Source of the DNA: a virus
IMG/VR virus record: IMGVR_UViG_3300030085_001951
Location: 475 to 25,034 of that record
Direction: 5' to 3' (one strand)
Length of the DNA: 24,560 nt
Position 1 is the stretch's first letter, and each line of letters opens with the position of its first letter. The notes under the pieces were generated by a model. The model did not search any database. It was not told the DNA's origin and saw only the letters and a list, made by a program, of their open reading frames with translations. Position numbers and translations under genes: made by a program. Positions 1 to 20,011 of this stretch are shown here, piece by piece.

Positions 1-458
1 ATCCAGTCGGGCACTGCTTTTTCTGGATGAATTAAAGCAGTAAAGGTATTGTCCAACGTGCCTGCCATGCAGTCCTGAGCCGCATGCCAGCCTTCATGCC
101 TAATGACCTGAATTATCTTTGTTGGCTGATCAATATAGAACTCATTCAGGAAGATGTTGTTACCACGCACGTCATATACCCCGCGCATGCGAAAAGCGAA
201 ATATTTCTCATCTGCGATATACACTGCAGCCCCAACCTTGTCTAAGGCCTGAGCAATGCCGTTTAGTTCTGCTGCGGCAATTTCATATTCAGGGCCAAGA
301 TCCTCCCAACTTTTGATTTGTCTTACGCCTTCAGTACACTCCTTGAGCATCATGCAGCCAACTGAATCAAAGCTGCGCCAAGATTTCACTTTGTCCTGCG
401 CCAACGCTGGCGTGGCAATTGCTGCTGAAGCCAAAACTGAAGCAAGAAACTTTTTCAT
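1..458 (-). CDS. Exported HExxH-motif protein, C-terminus beyond window edge
   Basis: An open minus-strand frame starts at the ATG at 458 and runs to the window edge without a stop (152 residues seen, 3' end missing). It begins with a clear Sec signal peptide: MKK, a hydrophobic stretch, then ATPALA before Q21. The mature part has C35, C41 and C130, which could form disulfides in the periplasm. Residues 121-125 read H-E-G-W-H, the HExxH zinc-binding and catalytic motif of zincin metallopeptidases, inside a predicted helix (VIRHEGWHAAQDC). The third zinc ligand, if any, may lie beyond the edge. It starts 3 nt after the stop of the C39-type peptidase gene, so the two are cotranscribed and probably coupled. 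No convincing Shine-Dalgarno precedes it. The reading frame and export are well supported. Peptidase activity is inferred from the motif and context only. Confidence 0.85.
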   Translation of the reverse strand, partial: MKKFLASVLASAAIATPALAQDKVKSWRSFDSVGCMMLKECTEGVRQIKSWEDLGPEYEIAAAELNGIAQALDKVGAAVYIADEKYFAFRMRGVYDVRGNNIFLNEFYIDQPTKIIQVIRHEGWHAAQDCMAGTLDNTFTALIHPEKAVPDW

Positions 459-461
459 GAC

Positions 462-1211
462 TCACTGATTAACGAGGATCACCCAGCCAGTTCTAGGTCC
501 ATTCGCTTGCCAGCGCTGGTGGAATGCAGCCTGTCTTACGCGAACATTGCGGCCAAGGTGTGGGTTGCTGTGGCCACCTTTTTCCATCTCTGGGTAGCCG
601 CGTGGATCTTGCATGATCCACTCAGGGTCATTGCTGTTTTTCCCTGCGTAACCACTAATGACGCTCCAATGTCCGCAGCCTATGCCGTTGCACATAGGTG
701 CTTCGCCGCGAAGCATGTTGCCGTGATGCAACCAGCCAACCAACACTGGTCGTCCAGCCTCGACCTCCAGCTCTACTAAGTCAGCATCGCCGTCTTGCCG
801 AAACTCAGCCTCTAAACCAAGACTGCGCAACGCTGCAAGCTGGGCATCTACTGACGTGGTGTCCCCGAATTTGGCGCGAATTTTGCTGTACTCATCATCC
901 GTACGAACCTTCTTGTAATAGGCCGCCACCATGGCTGCTGCTGAACTAAAGCACTCTCGATAACCAGTCCCTGTCTTGTTGTCGAGCTGCTTGAAGTAGG
1001 GCATGTAGATCTGCTGGTCATAGCCGCTTTCTTTCCAGGCTTGAAACCAATCAGCTTCGTCTTCCTCCAGTAGCTCCGATGGCATTGACTCCTCAAGCTG
1101 TTTAATAGCAGCCAGCTGGTGGGGCGTACCACGGAAAAACTGGAAAAACGGCAATAAAGCAAAGGCCATGCCAAGCAACAGCAGGGTCAGCTGGATGATG
1201 CCGGATGACAA
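462..1211 (-). CDS. Membrane-anchored papain-like (C39-type) cysteine peptidase
   Basis: 249 aa. Residues 4-26 form one transmembrane helix followed by an acidic linker (39-58). A papain-fold peptidase region starts near residue 68. The expected catalytic set is present in order: oxyanion Gln75 (PYFKQLDN), nucleophile Cys87 (YRECFSSAAAM), His181 (GCGHWSVISGY) and Asp202 (MQDPRG), the arrangement of C39-like and C70-like families. The start is TTG, immediately after the TAG stop of the 57-aa gene. An ATG exists at residue 15 but would cut the membrane helix, so TTG is preferred, with AAGG about 12 nt upstream. The protein is probably tethered to the inner membrane with the catalytic domain on one face. 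It could cleave peptide cross-links or host envelope proteins during lysis. The substrate is unknown, and C39 peptidases usually cut proteins after double glycine. Confidence 0.88.
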   Translation of the reverse strand: MSSGIIQLTLLLLGMAFALLPFFQFFRGTPHQLAAIKQLEESMPSELLEEDEADWFQAWKESGYDQQIYMPYFKQLDNKTGTGYRECFSSAAAMVAAYYKKVRTDDEYSKIRAKFGDTTSVDAQLAALRSLGLEAEFRQDGDADLVELEVEAGRPVLVGWLHHGNMLRGEAPMCNGIGCGHWSVISGYAGKNSNDPEWIMQDPRGYPEMEKGGHSNPHLGRNVRVRQAAFHQRWQANGPRTGWVILVNQ

Positions 1212-1385
1212 CTACTTTTCAATCCTTGTGTCAGGCAACAGCATTTCACGCACATGCTTGACCGCCAAGTCGTCCAAGTCGTTGTCCGTTCTCGCGACGA
1301 TCTTCTCCAGCATCGCGACAATCAGCTCCTTGAATGCCCTTGACTTCCATGCGGTCATCAAGATTGGCTTGAGGACTAAAAGCAT
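1212..1385 (-). CDS. Small conserved helical protein, 57 aa
   Basis: Start ATG at 1385, stop TAG at 1212-1214, 57 codons. The product begins MLLVLKPILMTAWKSRAFKE and continues with an amphipathic helix and an acidic stretch (RTDNDLDDLAVKHV). The N-terminal LLVLKPILM is hydrophobic but too short for a certain membrane helix. The stop abuts the TTG start of the peptidase gene, and the gene fills the gap between the coiled-coil gene and the peptidase, which supports reality despite the short length. I recall similar 50-60 aa proteins near lysis or tail genes of other phages, but no function is established. It could be a membrane-associated accessory of the neighbouring lysis-like genes. Confidence 0.8.
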   Translation of the reverse strand: MLLVLKPILMTAWKSRAFKELIVAMLEKIVARTDNDLDDLAVKHVREMLLPDTRIEK

Positions 1386-1412
1386 GAGACTGCTTTGAAT
1401 ATCACTAATACG

Positions 1413-1664
1413 TTAGTGCCTATCTGTATGCCCCTCAAGTCGAGCCACTGAACGCTCCAATTCGTTCAATCTGGCAAAGACCTCCATGTCTTTGGTCTTG
1501 ATGTCGTTGTGCAAGATATCTAGTCGACCTGACAGGTTGTCGACTGCAGCCGTGAGCCTGATCAGCGAGTCTTGGCCCTGACGAGCTTGGCGGTTGATGC
1601 CCGAGACCCCAACACCAGCCACTGTTATTGACGCGCCTGCAACGGCGGCCCAGACTTCTACCAT
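1413..1664 (-). CDS. Small membrane protein with coiled coil, 83 aa
   Basis: Residues 5-22 are hydrophobic (VWAAVAGASITVAGVGVS) and read as a single membrane helix. Residues 32-77 show heptad-like spacing of leucine, isoleucine and valine with alternating charges, a coiled coil. The C-terminus is charged and His-containing. One membrane anchor plus a coiled coil is seen in phage lysis accessories (spanin-like or holin-like) and in small virion proteins, and neither can be chosen from sequence. It is the first gene of a minus-strand operon leading to the 57-aa protein, the peptidase and the HExxH protein, and its start lies only 26 bp from the divergent plus-strand cassette. No strong Shine-Dalgarno is seen; GGCGGA sits a few bases before the ATG. 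Confidence 0.78.
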   Translation of the reverse strand: MVEVWAAVAGASITVAGVGVSGINRQARQGQDSLIRLTAAVDNLSGRLDILHNDIKTKDMEVFARLNELERSVARLEGHTDRH

Positions 1665-1690
1665 GATCCGCCGCTAGCACTGGTTTCATC

Positions 1691-1972
1691 ATGGCAGAGA
1701 CCAAGGAGACGAAGTCGGAAGAACAAGAAGATCATTCCAATGGGTGGCTTGGCGACTTCGTTCGCCTAACAATCATGGTTTGGGCCATGGGTGTCATTAC
1801 CGCTAATTACCTGGGCATTTTTAAGCAGTCCATCGACGTGACCTTCAGTGCATCACTGCTGAGTTCTACGGCTGCCAGCTACGGACTATCCGTAGGCCGC
1901 AACGGCCAAAAGAAGAAAGAGGAGAAGAGCGTTATCGTTGAGAACAAAGACACCAAAACCGGCATCAAATGA
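1691..1972 (+). CDS. Holin-sized membrane protein, 93 aa
   Basis: The N-terminus is highly charged (Glu/Lys, residues 2-15). One strong membrane helix follows at about 23-43 (VRLTIMVWAMGVITANYLGIF) and a weaker hydrophobic segment at about 50-68. The tail is very charged (QKKKEEKS and onward). Size, one or two helices and a charged tail fit holins or related small phage membrane proteins, and I recall similar proteins in marine cyanophages. It heads a four-gene plus-strand cassette, and its stop overlaps the next start as ATGA. The start ATG has no evident Shine-Dalgarno. The holin role is an inference; a membrane anchor for the exported proteins encoded downstream is equally possible. Confidence 0.8.
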   Translation: MAETKETKSEEQEDHSNGWLGDFVRLTIMVWAMGVITANYLGIFKQSIDVTFSASLLSSTAASYGLSVGRNGQKKKEEKSVIVENKDTKTGIK

Positions 1973-2460
1973 ACCGCGCACTTTTGGTATTGGGCATCAC
2001 ACTTGCGTCTGCCTTGCCTGCTCGTGCTGATTTGACTCATAAAATTATGTCGTCAGTCTCACTCCAAGTTGGCGGCGCAGTAACAACTGCTGAGCGAATC
2101 GGAAGTTCCTTCTCCATCAGTGGTTCAAATATCGACACCACTGACGGCAATACCGCCAACACTGTTTCGGCTGGGACAATCACCAGTGGTATTTACGCCC
2201 CTGGCACGATTGCGGCCACACAAGACACTCCTGGCGAAGCATTCTCGTTCAGCCAGTCTTATACACAAGCTGATGCTGTGCCTACGTCAGCAATTACGAC
2301 AGGTGACACTGCTAACTTTGGCAGCGTCATTTCTACCGCTGGCGGCACTGCAGGCAGCTTGGCAGGTGTCATTAATGCAGATCACACCATGACGATTACG
2401 GCTGGTGGCGCGAATACTTTGGCGATAGGACAGCTGACCTCAGAACTTACCATCAAATAA
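1969..2460 (+). CDS. Exported Ser/Thr/Gly-rich beta protein, 163 aa
   Basis: It starts within the ATGA overlap with the upstream membrane protein. A textbook Sec signal peptide covers residues 1-20 (MNR, hydrophobic core, ALPARA before D21). The mature part is rich in Ser, Thr, Gly, Ala and short beta strands (SVSLQVGGAV, MTITAGGA), with no cysteine, and is probably an all-beta secreted or surface protein. I recall this family as one of a set of three consecutive exported proteins in marine cyanophage genomes, with no function known to me. Its stop TAA is directly followed by the ATG of the next gene, so the cassette is translated as a coupled unit. Confidence 0.85.
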   Translation: MNRALLVLGITLASALPARADLTHKIMSSVSLQVGGAVTTAERIGSSFSISGSNIDTTDGNTANTVSAGTITSGIYAPGTIAATQDTPGEAFSFSQSYTQADAVPTSAITTGDTANFGSVISTAGGTAGSLAGVINADHTMTITAGGANTLAIGQLTSELTIK

Positions 2461-2907
2461 ATGTGGCTTGGGGTTTGGCTCGCTTGGGGCGTACTTTGCG
2501 TTGTTGCGCTTGCTGCGCCCGAAGCTAAGTCCATACCTGTGGTTCCAAATTTCCAGCAAGGAACTCTCAAGTCCACGACTACTACGAAGACCAAGGTCAA
2601 CGAAGTCATTAACTCTTATCAGTACCGCACGGGCTACGAATACACAGTGACGGGTACGAACGTGAAGCCAAGTGGGCCTATAGCCCCAATGGACTTAGTG
2701 ACAACAACAAATACCCTGAATGGGGTTTCTAGTGTTTGGCGTGGTCTTGATCCTGCTAAAAAACCATCGTGGAGAATCGTCAACGATGCCGCTTCATTCA
2801 GCTTCAGCGAAACTCTTCAAGGCCCAGGACTGACGGAGCACACCATCATTACCCGTGAAACTGATGTTGAATCAATCACGGAAACCCTTAGTACCTTTAC
2901 CCAATGA
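2461..2907 (+). CDS. Exported beta-rich protein, 148 aa
   Basis: The ATG follows the preceding TAA with no spacing. The N-terminus (MWLGVWLAWGVLCVVALAAP) is an unusually Trp-rich signal sequence or membrane anchor lacking early basic residues. The mature protein is Thr-rich with alternating beta patterns (GTLKSTTTTKTKV, YQYRTGYEYTVTGTNVKP) and ends ETLSTFTQ. The motif NVKPSGPIAP and a Trp-Arg-Gly-Leu-Asp segment near residue 93 are what I recall from the corresponding cyanophage family. The last codons overlap the next gene's start as ATGA. Function is unknown. Context suggests it acts with its two exported neighbours in the host envelope or on the virion. Confidence 0.83.
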   Translation: MWLGVWLAWGVLCVVALAAPEAKSIPVVPNFQQGTLKSTTTTKTKVNEVINSYQYRTGYEYTVTGTNVKPSGPIAPMDLVTTTNTLNGVSSVWRGLDPAKKPSWRIVNDAASFSFSETLQGPGLTEHTIITRETDVESITETLSTFTQ

Positions 2908-3635
2908 AACGAGTCATTGCAGCGCTTTTGCTGTTTTCTGCACCAGCACAAGCTCAAGTCAGCAGCACTGCTGCACCAGTCGCCAATAGTTCCGGGAGTG
3001 TGACCAATCAGGCTGTGCAGGTTGTGCCAAGCAAGCAATTTACGAATACATACGGCGGAGGTATTAGCTGCCAAGGCGCAACACTGAACATCAATCCGTT
3101 CATTAGCTCCACAACTAGCTGGGCTGATCCATACGAATCGCATTACAACGAGCCTGTTTATGACACTCTCGATCTCACTGGCGCGTTTGATCCGGAAGGC
3201 AATGCCGTCCCCGATGGCCGGCCCGATAATCCGGGCAATGTCTTGTTCTATAAGCCTGTTCGCACGGGCCAGAAAACAAATTTCTCGATCAATGGCGGAA
3301 TTACTGCCACCCTCTCGATTCCGCTAGATCGACATCACGTCAGGACTTGCCGCAAAGCCGCAGAGAAGCAGGTGGCATTGCTAGACGCAAAGCTTGCTAA
3401 CGAACGCATGGTCTACGAGATCAAGCGTCTGAAAAATTGTGCCGACCTTATAAGAGATGGCGTTGGCTTTCACCCAGATAGTCCTTACTCGGCGATTTGC
3501 GCAGACGTAGTCGTAAACAACCCACCACCGAAGATTCCTCCCCACACTCACAAAATTATTTACGCAAAGCCCTCTGAAACTTCCGACGCTGCCAAGCAGA
3601 CTCAACAACCACCTTCTTCCCCAGCTTCGCCTTGA
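2904..3635 (+). CDS. Exported cysteine-containing protein, 243 aa
   Basis: A clear Sec signal peptide covers residues 1-17 (MKRVIAALLLFSAPAQA). The mature part has a beta-rich N-terminal half, then a DPEGNAVPDGRPDNPGN loop (about residues 96-112, Asp/Asn/Gly-rich and calcium-loop-like). A helical segment of about 143-185 is charged and coiled-coil-like. A C-terminal cysteine cluster (C149, C179, C199, with C56 upstream) suggests disulfides, and the tail is proline- and histidine-rich. It is the last gene of the plus cassette; its final 80 bp overlap the 3' end of the minus-strand gene from 4314. A plus-strand intrinsic terminator lies about 335 nt beyond its stop. The family recurs in marine cyanophages as far as I recall; function unknown. 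Confidence 0.85.
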   Translation: MKRVIAALLLFSAPAQAQVSSTAAPVANSSGSVTNQAVQVVPSKQFTNTYGGGISCQGATLNINPFISSTTSWADPYESHYNEPVYDTLDLTGAFDPEGNAVPDGRPDNPGNVLFYKPVRTGQKTNFSINGGITATLSIPLDRHHVRTCRKAAEKQVALLDAKLANERMVYEIKRLKNCADLIRDGVGFHPDSPYSAICADVVVNNPPPKIPPHTHKIIYAKPSETSDAAKQTQQPPSSPASP

Positions 3636-4314
3636 TCTTCTTGATCGTCTTTTTGACGATGGGCTTTACAACCTTCAGCAAGATGTCGCCTAACGGTTTA
3701 ACGAAGATGGCAACCGTGGTCGCGACAGCCACAGTTGTTGCAGTCGTCGCCACAACAGGCGCAGCAGGAAGATAGTTGCCGATAATCGTTGGTACGTCCA
3801 GCGGTTCATAGATTGCTTGGCATTTGCCATCGACGCGCTCGTAACCAATGATGACGGCGGTTTGAGATTTGTTTTTCGCACCTAAAGGAATTGCGTCGGC
3901 AGGAGGACATGGCAGCTCTTTGACTACGTTTGAAATGTCGAGATCAGCACTCGGCGGCGAAGAGGTGGGTCCCGGCTGACTTGAGACATCAGCCGGTTTT
4001 TTTATGTCTGTGTCGATAGCAGGTGGTCTTGCTTTCGAGTAGTTGAGCGTCCCAGGCGTGAAGTTAAGGGGCTTGTATGAAGGCATCTCCGCTCCGCAGA
4101 CAATGAAGTTGCCTCGCGGGTCGTTGCTGTAAACCTGCTTATCGCCAGCTGCTGAAGTTCGAGTCTCTACGCAACCTGGAACATCAGCTACTGGAAATCC
4201 AAGTTGCAACGTAATAGGCGGAGCATCTGGAATGCTTTGCGGAGGCAGCGCTCTCCACTCCGGAATCTCTGGAACGTTGATTCGACTAACGCCAATCTCA
4301 GGAATTTCCGGCAT
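3556..4314 (-). CDS. Pro-rich, membrane-spanning, basic-tailed phage protein
   Basis: 252 aa in three parts. The N-terminal half is proline-rich with PEIPE repeats (residues 2-35) and four cysteines (48, 73, 136, 165). A hydrophobic Ala/Thr/Val helix spans about 186-206. The C-terminus, 207-252, is strongly basic (KKTIKKIKAKLGKKV, ending WQRRKFQRALRK). The layout suggests a single-pass membrane protein with a nucleic-acid- or lipid-binding tail; I recall similar proteins in marine cyanophages, possibly virion-associated. Its start overlaps the DUF3310 gene by 17 nt, so it is third in a minus-strand trio. Its 3' 80 bp overlap the convergent plus-strand gene, and codons around residues 105-115 contain a plus-strand terminator. 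Function unknown. Confidence 0.83.
   Translation of the reverse strand: MPEIPEIGVSRINVPEIPEWRALPPQSIPDAPPITLQLGFPVADVPGCVETRTSAAGDKQVYSNDPRGNFIVCGAEMPSYKPLNFTPGTLNYSKARPPAIDTDIKKPADVSSQPGPTSSPPSADLDISNVVKELPCPPADAIPLGAKNKSQTAVIIGYERVDGKCQAIYEPLDVPTIIGNYLPAAPVVATTATTVAVATTVAIFVKPLGDILLKVVKPIVKKTIKKIKAKLGKKVVVESAWQRRKFQRALRK
3972..4003 (+). terminator. Intrinsic terminator inside antisense coding sequence
   Basis: Plus strand: a perfect 8-bp stem CCGGCTGA / TCAGCCGG (3972-3979 with 3989-3996), loop CTTGAGACA, then seven T (3997-4003). It has all hallmarks of a rho-independent terminator and is the only good candidate after the plus-strand cassette, whose last stop is at 3635. The same bases encode part of a Lys-Lys-Pro-Ala-Asp-Val-Ser segment of the minus-strand gene at 3556-4314. 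Read on the minus strand it has no T tract, so transcription of that gene should pass through. Confidence 0.8.
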
Positions 4315-4531
4315 TCAGGCGCAAAATCGCACGACTTAAATACCAAGAAGCCTTCTGCAGGTCTTGTGACGCATCTTGCTTATGCCATGCACGCAGCAGA
4401 TACTTCAACGTCTGCCCAACCAAGTACCCCACGACGGGCTCTGGGGCACCAGCAACTACATCTTCAATGATCTCGATCGCTTCTATCCGACCTTTGGTGT
4501 AGTGAGGAGGAGAATTGACCTGATCACTCAT
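4298..4531 (-). CDS. DUF3310-like small phage protein
   Basis: 77 aa. The N-terminal VNSPPHYTKGRIEAIEIIED and central GYLVGQTLKYLLRAWHK match the pattern of the DUF3310 (SaV-like) family of small phage proteins: an N-P/S-P-x-H-Y element, an I/V-E-x-I-E-I helix, then a (N/Q)-x-x-KYLLR helix. The final helix WYLSRAILRL also fits. Family members are usually encoded near nucleotide-metabolism genes, often called nucleotide-kinase-like, but their function is unproven. The start overlaps the stop of the preceding membrane-protein gene as ATGA, and the stop region overlaps the next gene by 17 nt, so translation is coupled along the trio. Confidence 0.85.
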   Translation of the reverse strand: MSDQVNSPPHYTKGRIEAIEIIEDVVAGAPEPVVGYLVGQTLKYLLRAWHKQDASQDLQKASWYLSRAILRLNAGNS

Positions 4532-4761
4532 GGAAGTTTGAACGGAACAGCAGGTCCAGTGCTTGTTGGCAGCTCAGGCATAGCCTCAGTAATCTGCCCA
4601 GACATCATATTCGTCATGACCTTAGTCATCTCCAAAGTCAACTCACTCATGTAGTACTTAGTGAGTGATGGAATGCGGGTGTAAAGCAACACTGACCCAG
4701 CAACCATCCCTGCAGACATAGTGAATGCTGCAACAGACATTACGTTGAAAAGCTTTTGCAC
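4528..4761 (-). CDS. Small Met-rich single-pass membrane protein, 77 aa
   Basis: GTG start at 4761; an internal ATG at residue 8 is an alternative. Residues 8-27 form a membrane helix (MSVAAFTMSAGMVAGSVLLY). An amphipathic helix containing several methionines follows (LTLEMTKVMTNMMSGQITEAM), then a proline-rich end (STGPAVPFKLP). I recall proteins of the same pattern in marine cyanophages, with no function. It is the first gene of the minus-strand trio and must be transcribed from a promoter in the CTAG-rich island upstream, where I see no convincing -10 box. Neither start has a strong Shine-Dalgarno. Confidence 0.75.
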   Translation of the reverse strand: MQKLFNVMSVAAFTMSAGMVAGSVLLYTRIPSLTKYYMSELTLEMTKVMTNMMSGQITEAMPELPTSTGPAVPFKLP

Positions 4762-4788
4762 TTGCCAAGATTGCAGGTCAATGGCATG

Positions 4789-4987
4789 CTAGCCCTACCG
4801 TGCTCTAGGACATTTGGGCCTAGGGAGCCTACGGGCTAAGGGATCGAGGAACTAGCCAGCCTCTGGTAACAAAACACGGTGCTCTTAGGAGTGGCTATCG
4901 CTAGACCTAGTTCCCAAGCTGTTAGATCAGCCTCTGTTCTGCTAGAGCGTCGGCACCTGAGAACCCCGTCCTAGGCGGGGTTTTCTT
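4789..4987 (+). ncRNA. Candidate structured small RNA ending at terminator
   Basis: No plus-strand gene precedes the plus-oriented terminator at 4962-4984, so that terminator needs a transcript to end. The 170 bases before it can fold into several hairpins. One is a 6-bp TAGCCC/GGGCTA stem enclosing GCTC/GAGC and TAGG/CCTA pairs. Another is the 8-bp GGAACTAG/CTAGTTCC long-range stem. Short hairpins also form at 4919-4932 (GCTG/CAGC) and 4932-4945 (CTCT/AGAG). No tRNA, tmRNA or riboswitch I know fits, and no promoter is obvious. The proposal is an inference and the 5' end is a guess. Confidence 0.3.
4962..4987 (+). terminator. Intrinsic terminator, plus orientation
   Basis: Stem AACCCCG (4962-4968) pairs with CGGGGTT (4976-4982), with the loop reducible to CTA through extra T-G and C-G pairs. 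It is followed by TTTTCTT on the plus strand. On the minus strand the stem is followed only by TTCTC, a poor tract, so plus is the likely direction. No annotated plus gene lies just upstream, which makes its purpose unexplained. Confidence 0.7.
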
Positions 4988-4999
4988 GTGTAATGGCAA

Positions 5000-5036
5000 G
5001 AAAAAACCCCTCCTGCTGTGTGAGACCAGGAGGGGT
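5000..5036 (-). terminator. Intrinsic terminator ending the tail operon
   Basis: Perfect 10-bp stem ACCCCTCCTG (5006-5015) with CAGGAGGGGT (5027-5036) and an 11-nt loop. On the minus strand it is followed by TTTTTTCTT (complement of 5001-5006 and beyond). It lies 27 nt after the stop of the beta-barrel gene and is the evident end of the long late operon that enters from 24555. Confidence 0.9.
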
Positions 5037-5063
5037 GCAATAACAACTGCAGCTTTAGCTTAA

Positions 5064-5432
5064 TCAGAAGCTGTACTTCATGCCAACCTTTGACCCAACT
5101 GACAGCTCATCACCAGTGATGCCGCTCAGCTCGCCATAAATGGAAGCTTTCTCGCTGACAGCAACAGAACCGCCGAACTTGCCTGCAAATTCAATTTCGT
5201 TCTCAGCGCCGTTAGGCATCACAACGGCAGGACCACCCTGGATATAGAAGGAATAAGCGCCTTCAGACAGCTCATAACCTACGTCCAGCGTAAGAACTCC
5301 GCCGTTGTAGCTGTCGCCATAGCTTGACCCATTAAATTCTGGGTTCACATAGATGTTGCCTTCTGCGAGAGCAGGAGATGCCAGCGCAGCTGCTGAAACG
5401 GCGACACCACTCGCAATGAGAGTTTTGATCAT
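5064..5432 (-). CDS. Small outer-membrane beta-barrel protein
   Basis: 122 aa. The signal peptide covers residues 1-23 (hydrophobic core, SPALA before E24). The mature protein, about 99 residues, alternates polar and hydrophobic residues in strands (NIYVNPEF, VLTLDVGYEL, YSFYIQGG, FAGKFGGSVAV, ASIYGELSG, KVGMKYSF). It ends in Phe preceded by alternating hydrophobics, the C-terminal signal recognised by the outer-membrane assembly machinery. It is acidic and cysteine-free, like small 8-strand barrels. It is the last gene of the tail operon, 11 nt after the 41-aa gene, and is followed by a strong terminator. The position next to fibre genes recalls lambda lom, whose product is an Ail/OmpX-like outer-membrane barrel, but I see no direct sequence match to Lom. 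It could mask receptors or alter the envelope of infected cells. Confidence 0.85.
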   Translation of the reverse strand: MIKTLIASGVAVSAAALASPALAEGNIYVNPEFNGSSYGDSYNGGVLTLDVGYELSEGAYSFYIQGGPAVVMPNGAENEIEFAGKFGGSVAVSEKASIYGELSGITGDELSVGSKVGMKYSF

Positions 5433-15129: not shown

Positions 15130-15533
15130 TAGACCTGCAGTACACCAATCAAATTCACTGTAACAGTGCTAATCCCAGGGCGCACCTGAACTAGCTGCGG
15201 AGACTTTTCATACCGAAAGCTGTTTCCATGCGCCCCGGCCCCCAAAGCGTCCTCGTTTCCTTCCCAGCCTTTCTTGCCACTACTCATGTCGATTGACAAT
15301 GTCCCAAACGTGCCTTGCACTGAGTCGTAGTGATCCAGGATCTGCTCAGCCTGAGCGTCCGTGATGTTCGCGAACGTCAAAGACACTTTTAGATTGGTAC
15401 GACGGCTGCCGTACAGCACTCGATGCTCAACGCCGTTTTGCGTCTTATAGGTTTTTACGGGGAAATCGCCAGGTTCAAAAGTCCGAGCGGTTGGTTCTAT
15501 TGTGGGGAATTTCGCGAATGGAGCTGTGGTCAT
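15129..15533 (-). CDS. Minor tail protein, 134 aa
   Basis: The N-terminus PFAKFPTIEPTARTFEPGDF and the middle LTFANITDAQAEQILDHYDS are patterns I recall for a small minor tail protein in cyanophages that follows the tip gene. No membrane or catalytic motifs. The start overlaps the stop of the J-like gene as ATGA, and the stop shares a base with the next start. It probably sits at the tail tip or connects the tip to the tube-like proteins, an inference from its position only. Confidence 0.78.
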   Translation of the reverse strand: MTTAPFAKFPTIEPTARTFEPGDFPVKTYKTQNGVEHRVLYGSRRTNLKVSLTFANITDAQAEQILDHYDSVQGTFGTLSIDMSSGKKGWEGNEDALGAGAHGNSFRYEKSPQLVQVRPGISTVTVNLIGVLQV

Positions 15534-18500
15534 TGGATGTCCTCCACTTTCACAGAATCTGGGTCTTTGATGAATTTAGCAAGCTTGCTATGCCTGTCAT
15601 CGTTGCATTGGTGCTCGGATGCCAAGATGTCTACTGTTCCTTCTTCTGAAAATGTCAGCTGCTCTACGACGTATACATGAGCACTGGTCTCTTTTTTATT
15701 GATACTAAATACAGAATCGTGGAACTTCGTGTCAGAGACCTTGCCATCAGTTATTTGCATGTCTCCACCTTCTATGTCATCTGAGCTTGTTTTGTAGAAA
15801 GTGACGTTATAAGTGCCGTCGGCAATAGGCTCGACACTTGTGACGACGCCTGTTGAGCTAACTACACCGTTTTGGGCGCTCGTGTATGGCGAAGACTCAG
15901 TAATTACCTTGATGTATGAACCTGCTTTTAGGTTCAAGCCTTCAACCGTCGTAGAGAAGCTGATTGTATGAGTGACGAACTTTCGGAGGCCTAAAAAATA
16001 TTTTGCAACCTTGAGAGCGTGATCTCTTGAAGTGCAGAACTGCGTCAGGTCAAACTGCTCTTCAGGTAATTCAGACTTTTGACTGCCATCTACTTTCACT
16101 TTCATCACCCTTTCTTCGGGCAGCTTGTTTCGAGACTCGAAGCGGTAGCGAACAGTTGCAGAAAAGTCTCTGCGCTCTTCGCTCCTAAGGTATTCCACCT
16201 TGTAGCTGTCTTCCAGAATGTTGCCTGCCGTGAACAACTGATCAATAGGCACCGGACCGTCATTGATGTTTCCACTTTTCTTGTGCGCGGGAATAGCTGG
16301 CAGCAATGAAAACTTGCCGTCTGACATCACAAAATTGCACAAGAAGAATGGCGCAACATCCATGATGTATTGACGTAAGTTAGTGCGTTCTGCGATAACT
16401 CCATTAAAGAACAACTCCTGTTTATGAATGAACCTTGAAGTGTCTTTAAAGTCTTCCACGTTCAACAAAAATGCATCGACTGGGCTCATGCCAGTCAGAT
16501 TGCCGGCCCCGCCTTGCTTGTCTGTCAACAGGTAGAACGCAAGATCTGTAAAGAGATGACTCGGTCCGTAAGTTTCCTTGAAGAAAGTGTCACCTGACTC
16601 GTCATATGGATTGTTGTTGTCTGAACTGACATCAGGATGCAGGCGCCTAACAGGAATGCCTTGGCCCAGCCAAACACGCAATGAATCCAAGCTTGTGAAA
16701 TTACGGCTTGCCTTTAGTGACAATCCACAAATCGTAAGACCGTTGTACTCCGGCACTTTGCTGTTTTCAAGTATCTCGTTGACGTACACCACCTTGTGCT
16801 CAGGTTCATTGTCATTTGACTTTTGAACCAAGCCCCGATAGAAACTTATGTCCGCATACTGACTGTCCCTTTCAAATTCAGTTTCGCCGGTAAATGTTCC
16901 GGTCCCAGGGACTACGCCGACATCATTAATTCTGTACTGAAAGCCCACTCTGTCGTACGTCCAGTAAAAAGGATTATTGGAAGCGTTGATTGTTTCAAGG
17001 TGCTCGAAGGTGTCACCTTTGTCCCAAGCAGCGTTTGTGTAGCCGTCATCGACAATTTCAATTGGTCCGTTTAACTCCCATTTTTTGGTGAGGCCAGTGA
17101 AGTGACCGCTTGGCAATTGCACGACTTTTGCGTTAAGGCGGAACCTAATCTTCTTGTTGCCCTCTTGAATTGCTTTTGTAGCGCTTTTAGTTTTGCCAAG
17201 CGGTTCGCTCTCTGCGTCACCAAAAACTTCGTAGTAGTAACCACCAGAACGGCCTTCAGGCACACTTGTGGTTTCAATATCGGTGACCCTGAAATACCAA
17301 CCTGACCAGCGAATTAAAGAACCAGAGGGGTGATTGCCCCTAAATTTGTTCTCACTTCCATATGCTGAGTTGCCGTAACCAGGCTCGCCTTCAGCCGCCG
17401 TTGAGCCTTCGCCGCGCCTAACAAAGAAAATGTCTCCTTTGCCCCAGCGAGGAGAGCTGCCGGTGACGGCATAGCCAGCCAAAGCCCACACATGAATTTG
17501 ACCTTGTCCAACTCTTGCGTAATGGTCTGCAACCAGTTCGTTTTTTTGGACAGTCCATCTGATCCTGATCCATCTGTCTCCAAAGACCTCACGAGTCTCT
17601 TTGGACCTTTGCGTTCCGACGCCACCACCATCGTTATCTGGGTTGCCAAAAATTTCCCACATAAATGTGCCTTGACGACCCGGCGGATCAAGGTTGCCAT
17701 TGCTTTCTCCAATTTCTATCGAAATTGCACGCCTAAACACGCCTGCTTTTTCGTCAGGTCTAGGGCTAACATGCTCGACTGCCGAAGGAATGCTTTTAGT
17801 GTCTGAACCGACTACTTTTTTGGGCTTGCGGAGGAACTCCTTGTTTTTTTGAATATCTTTTTTCCTAAGCTCCACGCCAGCGGTTTCAACAATAAATTTG
17901 CCAAGATTTCCTACTTGGGGCTTCCTAACAAGACTTGGGCTGTTCGCATCAGATATCGATGCTGAAAGCAAAATAATTTTTTGATCATCATCGAGATTTG
18001 CTAGCTCAGCGCCTGCGATCGGCACAAACTTGTACTCAAGTTCAGTCTTTTGAGGATGCTTAAACCTAATAAAGTTGTACTGTTCTGCGGGTGAATTACC
18101 CCTGACAGCGAAGAGCAAATCCATGCGGCGGAAACTGAAAGCGTTGTCGCCATTGTCAACACCTGCCTTTCGTACATAAACTTGAAACACAGAAGTTCTT
18201 GTGATATTGCCGGTATAGGTGCCAGCACGCACTTGCACTTCTTCGTCATCAAATTTGTCAAGTTCGTCTGGTGTTGGAGTGCTGTTGAAAGCAGCTAAAC
18301 CTTGAAGTCGCTGAAAAACTTTGCTGCGAATACCCACTTCAGTTACGACTGCTGGCTTATTGTTGCGCACTACGGCCGCAGCGATTCTTGTGATGGGATA
18401 AAAAGTAGGCCTAACTCCTTCTTTGTCGGCTACATACCATTTGCGCAAAGTGTCGCCATCTCTAACGTATGAACGAGCCTCAGGCTGCACGACTTTGTCG

Positions 18501-20011
18501 TCATTGACAAAGCCAATACGAGCATCTTGAGACTCCTTGGTGCTAATGCATCGCAAGGTGATCACTTGTTCTTTATCTTTGTCTGGATCAAACTGTTGAA
18601 GCTTTCTTCTTTGGACGACAAAAAGAACGTTGCCGATGGCAAACTGCTCGCCAACCTGCAATGCATCATCAGCTGCTAACTGCTCTGATTCAACAGTTGA
18701 GTTAATGTCATCGACGGGCTCGCCACCTCTATTGTTTGAGCGTTGATATATATCCTCAGGAACACCTCCCGGCCTTATCGTAAATTCTACGGTGTCGCCA
18801 ACTTCAATTTTATCTCTTTCCGTCAGAGCATCAAAATCCGGCTGCAATACGCTTCCATTTGCCCTTACTAGTTTTGTTAATCCCATGCGTGGGCTGTATT
18901 GACGACCTTCGCCTTCCATATACATTTTTCTAATTTTTACCAAATGACCTTCGTCTTTTACGGAAAAAGGCGCGTCGCTATCATCACGTTTTGCACCAGC
19001 GATCTTCCATCGACGAATTGCGGATGCATGTCGCTGTTGCTGATCGGTTCCATCAATGATCGATACAACTTCCCAGTTCAGCTTGAAGCCGGTTCCATTA
19101 GGCAGTGAACCATAGGTCCCGAAATCTGTGTTGTTTGCCGGGCTGTATGCATGGCAAAAGCTTTTTGAATCCGAACGAACCTGATTTGGACATTCAAATA
19201 CGTCTTGCTCGGTCGCATACTGAAAAGGATCACCTTTGCTGCCGTCGCCAGCTGAGCCATAAAACAAATTATTTCTTGTTAAACGATTGAATCCTGATGC
19301 GGAATCCACAAACCCATTGGTGAGCATGGGCGAGTTGCGCTTCCAGTAAAACGCGAAGAAGTCTTCAAAAAGCGCATCTAATGCGTTGTTGCCAAGGAAA
19401 ATTCCTTCTAAGTCCGGTTCAATGATTCCATCAGGACCAGTCCCATCTGCATGACCGTGCTCTCCAACAACAAACATCAACTTTGCTGACTGCTGTGTTC
19501 CGTGACTAAGCATCCGCGACCAAACAAGCTTTGGTGTCGCAAGCAATCCACCAACCTTTTTGCTTTTGATGTAACGGCCAAAAATAATAGGAATCGGCGA
19601 ACCATAGTCCGCTAGCTCCATCAAGCTGTCAAATCCACGGCTAGGTGTGAAACGATTCGCTGCGTTAGTGCTTCCAAGATCAAGTTGCGTTCGCTTCGAT
19701 GCCTCTGGAGCCTTTGGCTTAGGAGTCAATAAATATGCAGCACCAGTCAGAACAAGACCAATAGCTAACTGAATCAAGAACGGCTCAAAGCCCGTCGCTT
19801 TCACGTCGGGAATATGCGCGTACTCAGCTGGCCTTACCGTCCCACGACGCCTGACCTCAGCGGCAAACTTGCGATATTCCTCTTCACTAAGCCCAATCGT
19901 TGCAATTAACTGCCTTTCATACGGAAGCAGTGGTACGTCGTAAACAGACGGACCGAAGACCACTGAACCTTCTCTGACATTCGATTGACGTACAAGATCC
20001 CCGTCTGCCAT
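15530..20011 (-). CDS. J-like tail tip / host-specificity protein, 1493 aa
   Basis: The position after L-like and K-like genes and the length (lambda J is 1132 aa) identify it. Residues 138-155 (GSPIPIIFGRYIKSKKVGG) are the conserved entry motif of J-type tip proteins. Around residues 1100-1260 lies the tip-core region (SLDSLRVWLGQGIPVRRLHP ... NLRQYIMDVAPFFLCNFVM ... GKFSLLPAIP). A hub-like part follows (RDHALKVAKYFLGLRKFVTH, TTVEGLNLKAGSYIKV). A hydrophobic helix at 75-95 (FEPFLIQLAIGLVLTGAAYL) followed by TPKP resembles the end of lambda gpI, for which no separate gene exists here. The start overlaps the K-like gene by 106 nt; a GTG at residue 17 is an alternative, still overlapping. It determines receptor contact with the fibres encoded downstream. 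Confidence 0.88.
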   Translation of the reverse strand: MADGDLVRQSNVREGSVVFGPSVYDVPLLPYERQLIATIGLSEEEYRKFAAEVRRRGTVRPAEYAHIPDVKATGFEPFLIQLAIGLVLTGAAYLLTPKPKAPEASKRTQLDLGSTNAANRFTPSRGFDSLMELADYGSPIPIIFGRYIKSKKVGGLLATPKLVWSRMLSHGTQQSAKLMFVVGEHGHADGTGPDGIIEPDLEGIFLGNNALDALFEDFFAFYWKRNSPMLTNGFVDSASGFNRLTRNNLFYGSAGDGSKGDPFQYATEQDVFECPNQVRSDSKSFCHAYSPANNTDFGTYGSLPNGTGFKLNWEVVSIIDGTDQQQRHASAIRRWKIAGAKRDDSDAPFSVKDEGHLVKIRKMYMEGEGRQYSPRMGLTKLVRANGSVLQPDFDALTERDKIEVGDTVEFTIRPGGVPEDIYQRSNNRGGEPVDDINSTVESEQLAADDALQVGEQFAIGNVLFVVQRRKLQQFDPDKDKEQVITLRCISTKESQDARIGFVNDDKVVQPEARSYVRDGDTLRKWYVADKEGVRPTFYPITRIAAAVVRNNKPAVVTEVGIRSKVFQRLQGLAAFNSTPTPDELDKFDDEEVQVRAGTYTGNITRTSVFQVYVRKAGVDNGDNAFSFRRMDLLFAVRGNSPAEQYNFIRFKHPQKTELEYKFVPIAGAELANLDDDQKIILLSASISDANSPSLVRKPQVGNLGKFIVETAGVELRKKDIQKNKEFLRKPKKVVGSDTKSIPSAVEHVSPRPDEKAGVFRRAISIEIGESNGNLDPPGRQGTFMWEIFGNPDNDGGGVGTQRSKETREVFGDRWIRIRWTVQKNELVADHYARVGQGQIHVWALAGYAVTGSSPRWGKGDIFFVRRGEGSTAAEGEPGYGNSAYGSENKFRGNHPSGSLIRWSGWYFRVTDIETTSVPEGRSGGYYYEVFGDAESEPLGKTKSATKAIQEGNKKIRFRLNAKVVQLPSGHFTGLTKKWELNGPIEIVDDGYTNAAWDKGDTFEHLETINASNNPFYWTYDRVGFQYRINDVGVVPGTGTFTGETEFERDSQYADISFYRGLVQKSNDNEPEHKVVYVNEILENSKVPEYNGLTICGLSLKASRNFTSLDSLRVWLGQGIPVRRLHPDVSSDNNNPYDESGDTFFKETYGPSHLFTDLAFYLLTDKQGGAGNLTGMSPVDAFLLNVEDFKDTSRFIHKQELFFNGVIAERTNLRQYIMDVAPFFLCNFVMSDGKFSLLPAIPAHKKSGNINDGPVPIDQLFTAGNILEDSYKVEYLRSEERRDFSATVRYRFESRNKLPEERVMKVKVDGSQKSELPEEQFDLTQFCTSRDHALKVAKYFLGLRKFVTHTISFSTTVEGLNLKAGSYIKVITESSPYTSAQNGVVSSTGVVTSVEPIADGTYNVTFYKTSSDDIEGGDMQITDGKVSDTKFHDSVFSINKKETSAHVYVVEQLTFSEEGTVDILASEHQCNDDRHSKLAKFIKDPDSVKVEDIQ

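Follow-up and report, generated by a model that had tools for sequence, protein, structure and literature searches.

A recurrent cassette of exported and membrane proteins, a candidate late lysis module of picocyanobacterial phages

The window analysed here is a stretch of viral DNA of 24,560 nucleotides (nt), positions 475-25034 of the 25,034-base IMG/VR record IMGVR_UViG_3300030085_001951. Its first 5432 positions contain a cassette with a core of five genes, phrog_721, phrog_564, phrog_650 and phrog_848 on the plus strand and the convergent phrog_570 (hereafter 721, 564, 650, 848 and 570), which phrog_568 (568) often joins. In our judgement there is an even chance that this core acts as a lysis module, expressed late, in picocyanobacterial phages. 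Lysis is the role that we favour because the export signals are conserved, the T4-like relatives carry late motifs, the T7-like relatives place the cassette in the T7 lysis slot, and a member of an endolysin family is a neighbour. The question is of some weight, since picocyanobacterial lysis releases part of ocean primary production. The core genes and 568 are as follows.

1691..1972, plus strand: 721 (DUF6450, PF20048), 93 residues, one clear and one weak membrane segment and a lysine-rich tail, holin-like anatomy; core
1969..2460, plus strand: 564, beta-type protein with Sec export, paralogous to 650; core gene, missing or merged in podoviruses
2461..2907, plus strand: 650 (DUF6322, PF19847), Sec-exported, very long beta strands predicted; core
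2904..3635, plus strand: 848, Sec-exported, with a conserved post-signal segment, a beta domain and a long helix; core
3556..4314, minus strand: 570, acidic proline-rich N-terminal part, C-terminal membrane helix and basic tail; core
4528..4761, minus strand: 568 (labelled 'plasmid stability'), N-terminal membrane helix and short extracytoplasmic segment

Results

Recurrence of the core in cyanophages

Hidden Markov models (HMMs) of the window proteins were run iteratively against 413 loci, drawn from viral contigs and from reference phages. The core recurs, in rearranged order, in five phage groups covering siphovirus-type, marine T4-like, freshwater T4-like and T7-like cyanophages. The layouts are given below with the strand after each gene; C39, HExxH, OMP (outer-membrane protein) and the products of 57 and 83 residues are neighbours described later.

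Siphovirus-type, as in the window: C39-, 57 residues-, 83 residues- / 721+, 564+, 650+, 848+ / 570-, 568-, OMP-
Marine T4-like: 564+, 650+, 848+ / 570-, 568-, 721-
Freshwater T4-like: 564+, 650+, 848+, 570+, with 721, HExxH and C39 close by
T7-like: 57 residues+, 570+, 721+, 650+, 848+

Presence per group was counted with 3 kb flanks in loci fetched by 848. The genes 650, 848 and 570 are present in all loci of all five groups, 564 in all loci except those of podoviruses, and 721 in 70-100%. Over 25 phage records 848, 570 and 721 behave as all-or-none (17 records with all, 8 with none), and this persists when 721 lies far from the rest, for example in S-TIM5; since the records are related, no probability is attached to the count. 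The co-occurrence in cyanophage genomes that the first-pass annotation had proposed to look for is thus present for the core, whereas its notion of one dedicated set of ten genes was not borne out. We rejected a single ten-gene system because synteny and co-occurrence split the core from its neighbours: the OMP, HExxH, C39, 83-residue and 57-residue genes are distributed separately.

Besides >450 phage records, many contigs of uncultured viruses contain cassette genes. Within the phage collection, every match to 848 comes from a record of a Synechococcus, Prochlorococcus or other cyanophage, or from a marine or uncultured virus record. An origin of the genes in the host was considered and rejected: no clear bacterial homologue turned up in a single contig scan with the 848 alignment, which yielded 18 loci, mostly on contigs of metagenome-assembled genomes (MAGs) or single cells that resemble phage DNA in title and length. 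A cyanophage 848 is also encoded on contigs filed under unrelated bacteria or MAGs (L423, a 188-kb contig of Nonlabens xiamenensis 1Q3, together with L422 and L424-L429), which are probably cyanophage DNA within those assemblies.

The surroundings of some T4-like cassettes could fit a different role, in which the proteins stabilise or feed the envelope of the infected cell (host maintenance, nutrient uptake) instead of breaking it. The cassette of S-SM1 lies near hsp20, DUF680, pstS and phoA, and that of P-SSM2 near talC, pstS and petE. We give this reading little credence: these metabolic neighbours are not kept in siphovirus- or podovirus-type loci, and neither a host homologue nor a transport domain was found for the cassette.

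Export signals and membrane segments

All ten open reading frames (ORFs) singled out in the first-pass annotation of positions 1-5432 exist, with the starts that it gave, and its census stands: a Sec-type signal peptide is encoded by five of the 12 genes and a membrane helix by five others (10/12 in total). Signal peptides were called by a rule-based scan, and the exact cleavage sites (^) are our own reading. The rule is passed by the products starting at 458 (MKKFLASVLASAAIATPALA^QDK), 1969 (MNRALLVLGITLASALPARA^DLT), 2904 (MKRVIAALLLFSAPAQA^QVS) and 5432 (MIKTLIASGVAVSAAALASPALA^EGN). Only the product starting at 2461 fails, with no K/R ahead of its hydrophobic core; its 650 relatives have ordinary signal peptides that end at a conserved IPVVPNF, and 72% of the family pass. 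Hence the predictions hold for four of the five proteins, and the fifth is supported by its relatives. Across families the rule is passed by 94% of 564 and 89% of OMP members, and 170/177 members of the 848 family have a hydrophobic core and AxA.

Clear membrane helices are found in the products starting at 1211 (residues 5-23), 1691 (26-44), 4314 (187-205) and 4761 (7-25). The helix of the product starting at 1664 (residues 2-20) is weaker, with a mean hydropathy of 1.66, yet is seen in 37/37 family members. Only 1385-1212 and 4531-4298 have neither signal nor helix. The GenBank notes of P-SSP7 agree independently, describing the 570 homologue as '1 TM', that of 721 as '2 TM' and that of 650 as 'possible SignalP'.

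To the right of 5432 lies a siphovirus tail set (tape measure, gpJ-like protein, major and minor tail proteins), and the same scan called a signal peptide in 0/10 genes there. Hydrophobic stretches on that side occur in the tape measure, the gpJ-like protein, a fibre and one 289-residue protein; in the gpJ-like protein (15530-20011), residues 78-96 or so are strongly hydrophobic and may form a membrane segment.

The T7 lysis slot and the endolysin-family neighbour

In P-SSP7 the tail fibre and accessory genes are followed by 570 (gp42), 721 (gp43), 650 (gp44), 848 (gp45), gp46 and then terminase, the downstream end being marked by the small-terminase homologue gp47 and maturase B gp51. Of the podovirus-type loci whose flank is long enough, 70/71 have a small-terminase homologue after 848; on the upstream side, a tail-fibre homologue could be recognised in only 20/39. 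Between its tail fibre gene (17) and gene 19, T7 carries 17.5 ('lysis protein'), 18, 18.5 ('homologous to lambda Rz lysis protein') and 18.7. The cassette of T7-like cyanophages therefore occupies the interval of the T7 lysis genes. In S-TIP37, a T7-like phage that has been engineered on Synechococcus WH8109 (PMC8776855), the 650 homologue is at 39456-39755. S-CBP2, which has no cassette, carries a C39 'lysozyme' gene between tail fibre and maturase B.

In the window, the gene starting at 1211 encodes a C39-type cysteine peptidase that matches phrog_10051 with an E value of 2.8e-59 and PF13529 above the cut-off, and relatives in S-CBS1 and PSS2 are fused to a glucosaminidase domain. As a member of a cyanophage endolysin family with such fusions, it is probably the endolysin of the window phage.

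Late-promoter motifs

The published cyanomyovirus late promoter is NATAAATA (PMC2984593). TAAATA lies 18-50 nt 5' of 564 in 32/54 marine, 27/48 P-SSM2-like and 41/47 freshwater T4-like distinct upstream regions, against a background at other long ORFs of the same loci of 5.5, 9.6 and 19%, respectively. It also precedes 721, where the other arm starts, in 26/43, 14/33 and 19/35 regions of these groups, and in T4-like loci it was found in none of the regions 5' of the internal genes 650 and 848. Syn9 and S-SM1 served as a control: there the motif stands before tail tube, sheath, portal, scaffold and hsp20 and before genes of other clusters that look late, and before no replication gene among those examined. 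Scans for sigma-70 promoters and terminators did no better than shuffles, and no Rfam match was obtained.

Late timing bears on two further explanations. The cassette proteins could instead be parts of the virion or serve adsorption (as collar, tail or fibre accessories), being made late and crossing the envelope or having hydrophobic N-termini that are no true export signals. The motifs fit this view as well, tail-fibre genes adjoin the cassette in the window and in podoviruses, and 650 weakly resembles phage collar proteins in structure, although not significantly. Nevertheless, we regard it as unlikely: the signal peptides are conserved together with their cleavage sites, the T4-like cassette genes sit among replication genes, and in P-SCSP1u, which has 650 and 848, the reported portal-tail and capsid parts are gp16, gp19, gp22, gp23 and gp28 (PMC10575957), the gene numbers of 650 and 848 being unmapped.

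Alternatively, the cassette might change the cell surface during infection, by superinfection exclusion or receptor masking. Exported and outer-membrane-like proteins and the cyanophage-only distribution would suit such a role, which we nonetheless consider decidedly improbable. Exclusion genes usually act early, at odds with the late-promoter motifs; the place close to terminase in T7-like phages also argues against it, and no link to receptor-binding proteins was seen except for the fibre genes adjoining the cassette in the window.

Properties of the core proteins

The two membrane segments of 721 have mean hydropathies of 1.73 (the first, clear) and 1.27 (the second, weaker). It matches no known holin family, only PF20048/DUF6450 and PHROGs of unknown function. 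The exported proteins 564 and 650 are paralogous (hhalign probability 99.2%), and the 564 model also matches the P-SSP7 homologue of 650. In the AlphaFold2 model of 650 (predicted local distance difference test score, pLDDT, 83; predicted template-modelling score, pTM, 0.39) the protein is elongated and beta-type, with predicted strands of 23-24 residues; that of 848 (pLDDT 62, pTM 0.27) shows, at modest confidence, a beta domain and a 42-residue helix.

Sequence searches of solved structures with 848, 650, 564 and the C39 protein gave nothing significant, and Foldseek found no PDB match for the 650 and 848 models at E<=0.001; Foldseek matches to pore toxins, collar proteins and TolC were non-significant and are not used as evidence. 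The significant structure matches in the viral library include cyanophage members of the query family itself. In T4-like loci (L144 526-1425, L083 5776-6639 and others) the longest 848 ORF begins within the 650 gene. Public annotations often use this long start, and the signal peptide would therefore be hidden.

The N-terminal side of 570 contains 15.5% proline and has a median net charge of -8, compared with +13 past the membrane helix; the C-terminal side is the more positive in 377/380 members. Given this charge bias and the positive-inside rule, 570 is predicted from its charge distribution to be N-out/C-in. The convergent genes 570 and 848 overlap at their 3' ends, by 80 nt in the window (3556-3635), 53-83 nt across siphovirus loci and 113-329 nt in P-SSM2-like phages, an arrangement that may be open to antisense regulation.

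The small protein 568 accompanies the core in siphovirus-type and marine T4-like phages and is missing from podoviruses. The 'plasmid stability' label of its homologues (L083 8263-8478, L172 21393-21713) has no Pfam backing, and they look like small membrane proteins. Taken literally, the label would make the cassette a selfish mobile element carried by 568, and mobility has been proposed for the T4-like cluster, whose position varies among phages (PMC3037559). We find this scarcely credible, given that 568 is a membrane-helix protein with no Pfam match and that podovirus-type loci retain 650, 848 and 570 without it.

Discussion

A possible mechanism of lysis

Of the roles suggested in the first-pass annotation, namely envelope remodelling, lysis or surface exclusion, lysis gained ground from the T7 slot, the late motifs, the C39 neighbour and the topology of 570, while surface exclusion found no support. 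The steps may be pictured as follows. The module would be made late, as the promoter motifs of the T4-like relatives suggest and as we presume for the window siphovirus. With their conserved signal peptides, 564, 650 and 848 would leave through Sec for the periplasm or the outer membrane. To judge from its charges, 570 would sit in the inner membrane with its acidic proline-rich arm in the periplasm and its basic tail inside. Presumably 721 would work at the inner membrane, perhaps with 568, either as a holin or as the partner of one. Once an endolysin, in the window probably the C39 peptidase next door, has cut the peptidoglycan, 570 and the exported beta-rich proteins could either bridge both membranes or assemble within the outer membrane, and so rupture the latter.

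More specifically, and only tentatively since we hold it somewhat doubtful, T4-like, T7-like and siphovirus-type phages of marine picocyanobacteria may share an outer-membrane lysis machine that is free of lipoproteins and, by sequence, unrelated to spanins. It would consist of the N-out/C-in proline-rich 570 and two to three Sec-exported beta-rich proteins, possibly forming an envelope-spanning ring or pore. Such a complex would do the work of a spanin without a lipoprotein; we say that it may work like a spanin and not that it is one, as it has no lipobox and its anchor is at the wrong end for the spanin types.

A survey found no spanin in 23 cyanophages and suggested that the host outer membrane might simply be fragile (PMC6139136). 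The cassette is present in 17/23 of the listed phages; 848, 570 and 721 were all checked in 13 of the 17, and P-HM1, Syn1, S-ShM2 and Syn19 by 848 only. The shape suggested there for an overlooked spanin, proline-rich and N-out/C-in, fits that predicted for 570 (PMC6139136). Together with the T7 lysis slot and the T4-like late motifs, this occurrence makes the cassette a specific and testable alternative to a fragile outer membrane.

Several observations weigh against a lysis role. The cassette is missing from the spanin-less phages PSS2, Pf-WMP4, P60, S-CBS4, S-PM2 and Syn5, and no phrog_10051 or glucosaminidase endolysin was found in 8/9 cassette-bearing reference genomes. Syn9 and S-SM1 have no late motif before 564, and siphovirus loci have no T4-like late motif at all, for which reason late expression in the window can only be inferred. 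The topology of 570 requires export of an N-terminal tail of ~190 residues without a signal peptide, no core family has a lipobox, and the structure models are of modest confidence with no significant PDB match. A complementarity between endolysin and cassette was considered and set aside, being suggestive only, with too few independent genomes.

Neighbouring genes and features

The remaining genes near the core are listed below.

462..1211, minus strand: C39-type cysteine peptidase of the phrog_10051 endolysin family, N-terminal membrane helix; core neighbour
1413..1664, minus strand: phrog_26178, 83 residues, with a membrane helix at the N-terminus and a tail resembling a coiled coil; found beside the core in siphovirus-type loci
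1212..1385, minus strand: phrog_2738, 57 residues, with neither signal nor helix; found beside the core in siphovirus- and podovirus-type loci
1..458, minus strand: phrog_591, secreted HExxH protein; occasional neighbour
5064..5432, minus strand: Phage_OMP (PF24653, phrog_417), secreted, predicted beta-barrel; independent neighbour

In the full contig (L421, 273-932) the HExxH protein has 219 residues, four of them unreadable (X) in the record, and contains HEGWH, followed further downstream by a Glu-rich motif of the kind that zinc peptidases typically have. The product of 5432-5064 matches Phage_OMP with 104.8 bits (cut-off 27). Positions 4762-5063 are gene-free and hold two back-to-back stem-loops with T runs after them; of these, the stem-loop that follows the OMP gene, at about 5038-5003 on the minus strand, is kept in about 40 siphovirus-type loci. 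A structured part of ~170 nt in this interval has a minimum free energy of -79 versus -67 +/- 4 for shuffles, with no Rfam match. In T4-like phages an extra gene, T4-GC219, lies between 568 and 570 (L083 7673-8266, L172 21710-22270, L173 25857-26492); its product, which belongs to no Pfam family, has a membrane helix at the N-terminus and, at the C-terminus, a hydrophobic hairpin rich in glycine.

Comparison with known systems

Like the class II holins (T7 17.5, S21), 721 is a membrane protein of small size whose charged tail is rich in lysine, and it lies near the probable endolysin gene in the window and in the 17.5-19 interval of T7 in podoviruses. Different from them, its second segment is weak and it belongs to no holin family, so its holin role is putative.

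Two-component spanins (lambda Rz/Rz1, T7 18.5/18.7) share with the cassette the presumed outer-membrane task, the late timing and a proline-rich component, and the cassette of the T7-like relatives lies in the same genome interval. In contrast, the cassette has more components, no sequence similarity to these spanins was found, and it has no lipoprotein. The outer-membrane partner (o-spanin) carries a lipobox, of which there is none at the signal-peptide end of 564, 650 or 848, the 15 pattern matches in 564 being a VSC within the hydrophobic core. The inner-membrane partner (i-spanin) has an N-terminal helix and is N-in/C-out, whereas the helix that anchors 570 is C-terminal and its charge bias is reversed. 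An N-terminal helix like that of i-spanins is found in 568, but this protein is short and missing from podoviruses. A unimolecular spanin (T1 gp11) combines an N-terminal lipobox with a C-terminal helix; 570 has the helix and an extracytoplasmic N-terminal part, but no lipoylation signal, and its exported partners are separate.

The closest counterpart is the cluster of T4-GC 218, 219, 234, 235 and 237, found in all but S-PM2 among 16 genomes and noted in 2010 by Sullivan et al. as a conserved hypothetical cluster without function (PMC3037559). Homologues of 721 (218), 570 (234), 848 (235) and 564 (237) belong to it, with 568 adjoining; annotation and HMM matches show these four clustered in S-SM1, Syn9 and P-SSM4. 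The two sets differ in that 650 (T4-GC 236) is added here and GC219 is not in the window. The families of the window are thus not new, every one having a PHROG or Pfam entry. Relative to the open-access literature searched, the new points are that the cluster reaches into T7-like and siphovirus-type phages and takes in 650, a paralogue of 564, together with the evidence for export and late promoters, the position in the T7 lysis slot and the agreement with the list of spanin-less phages.

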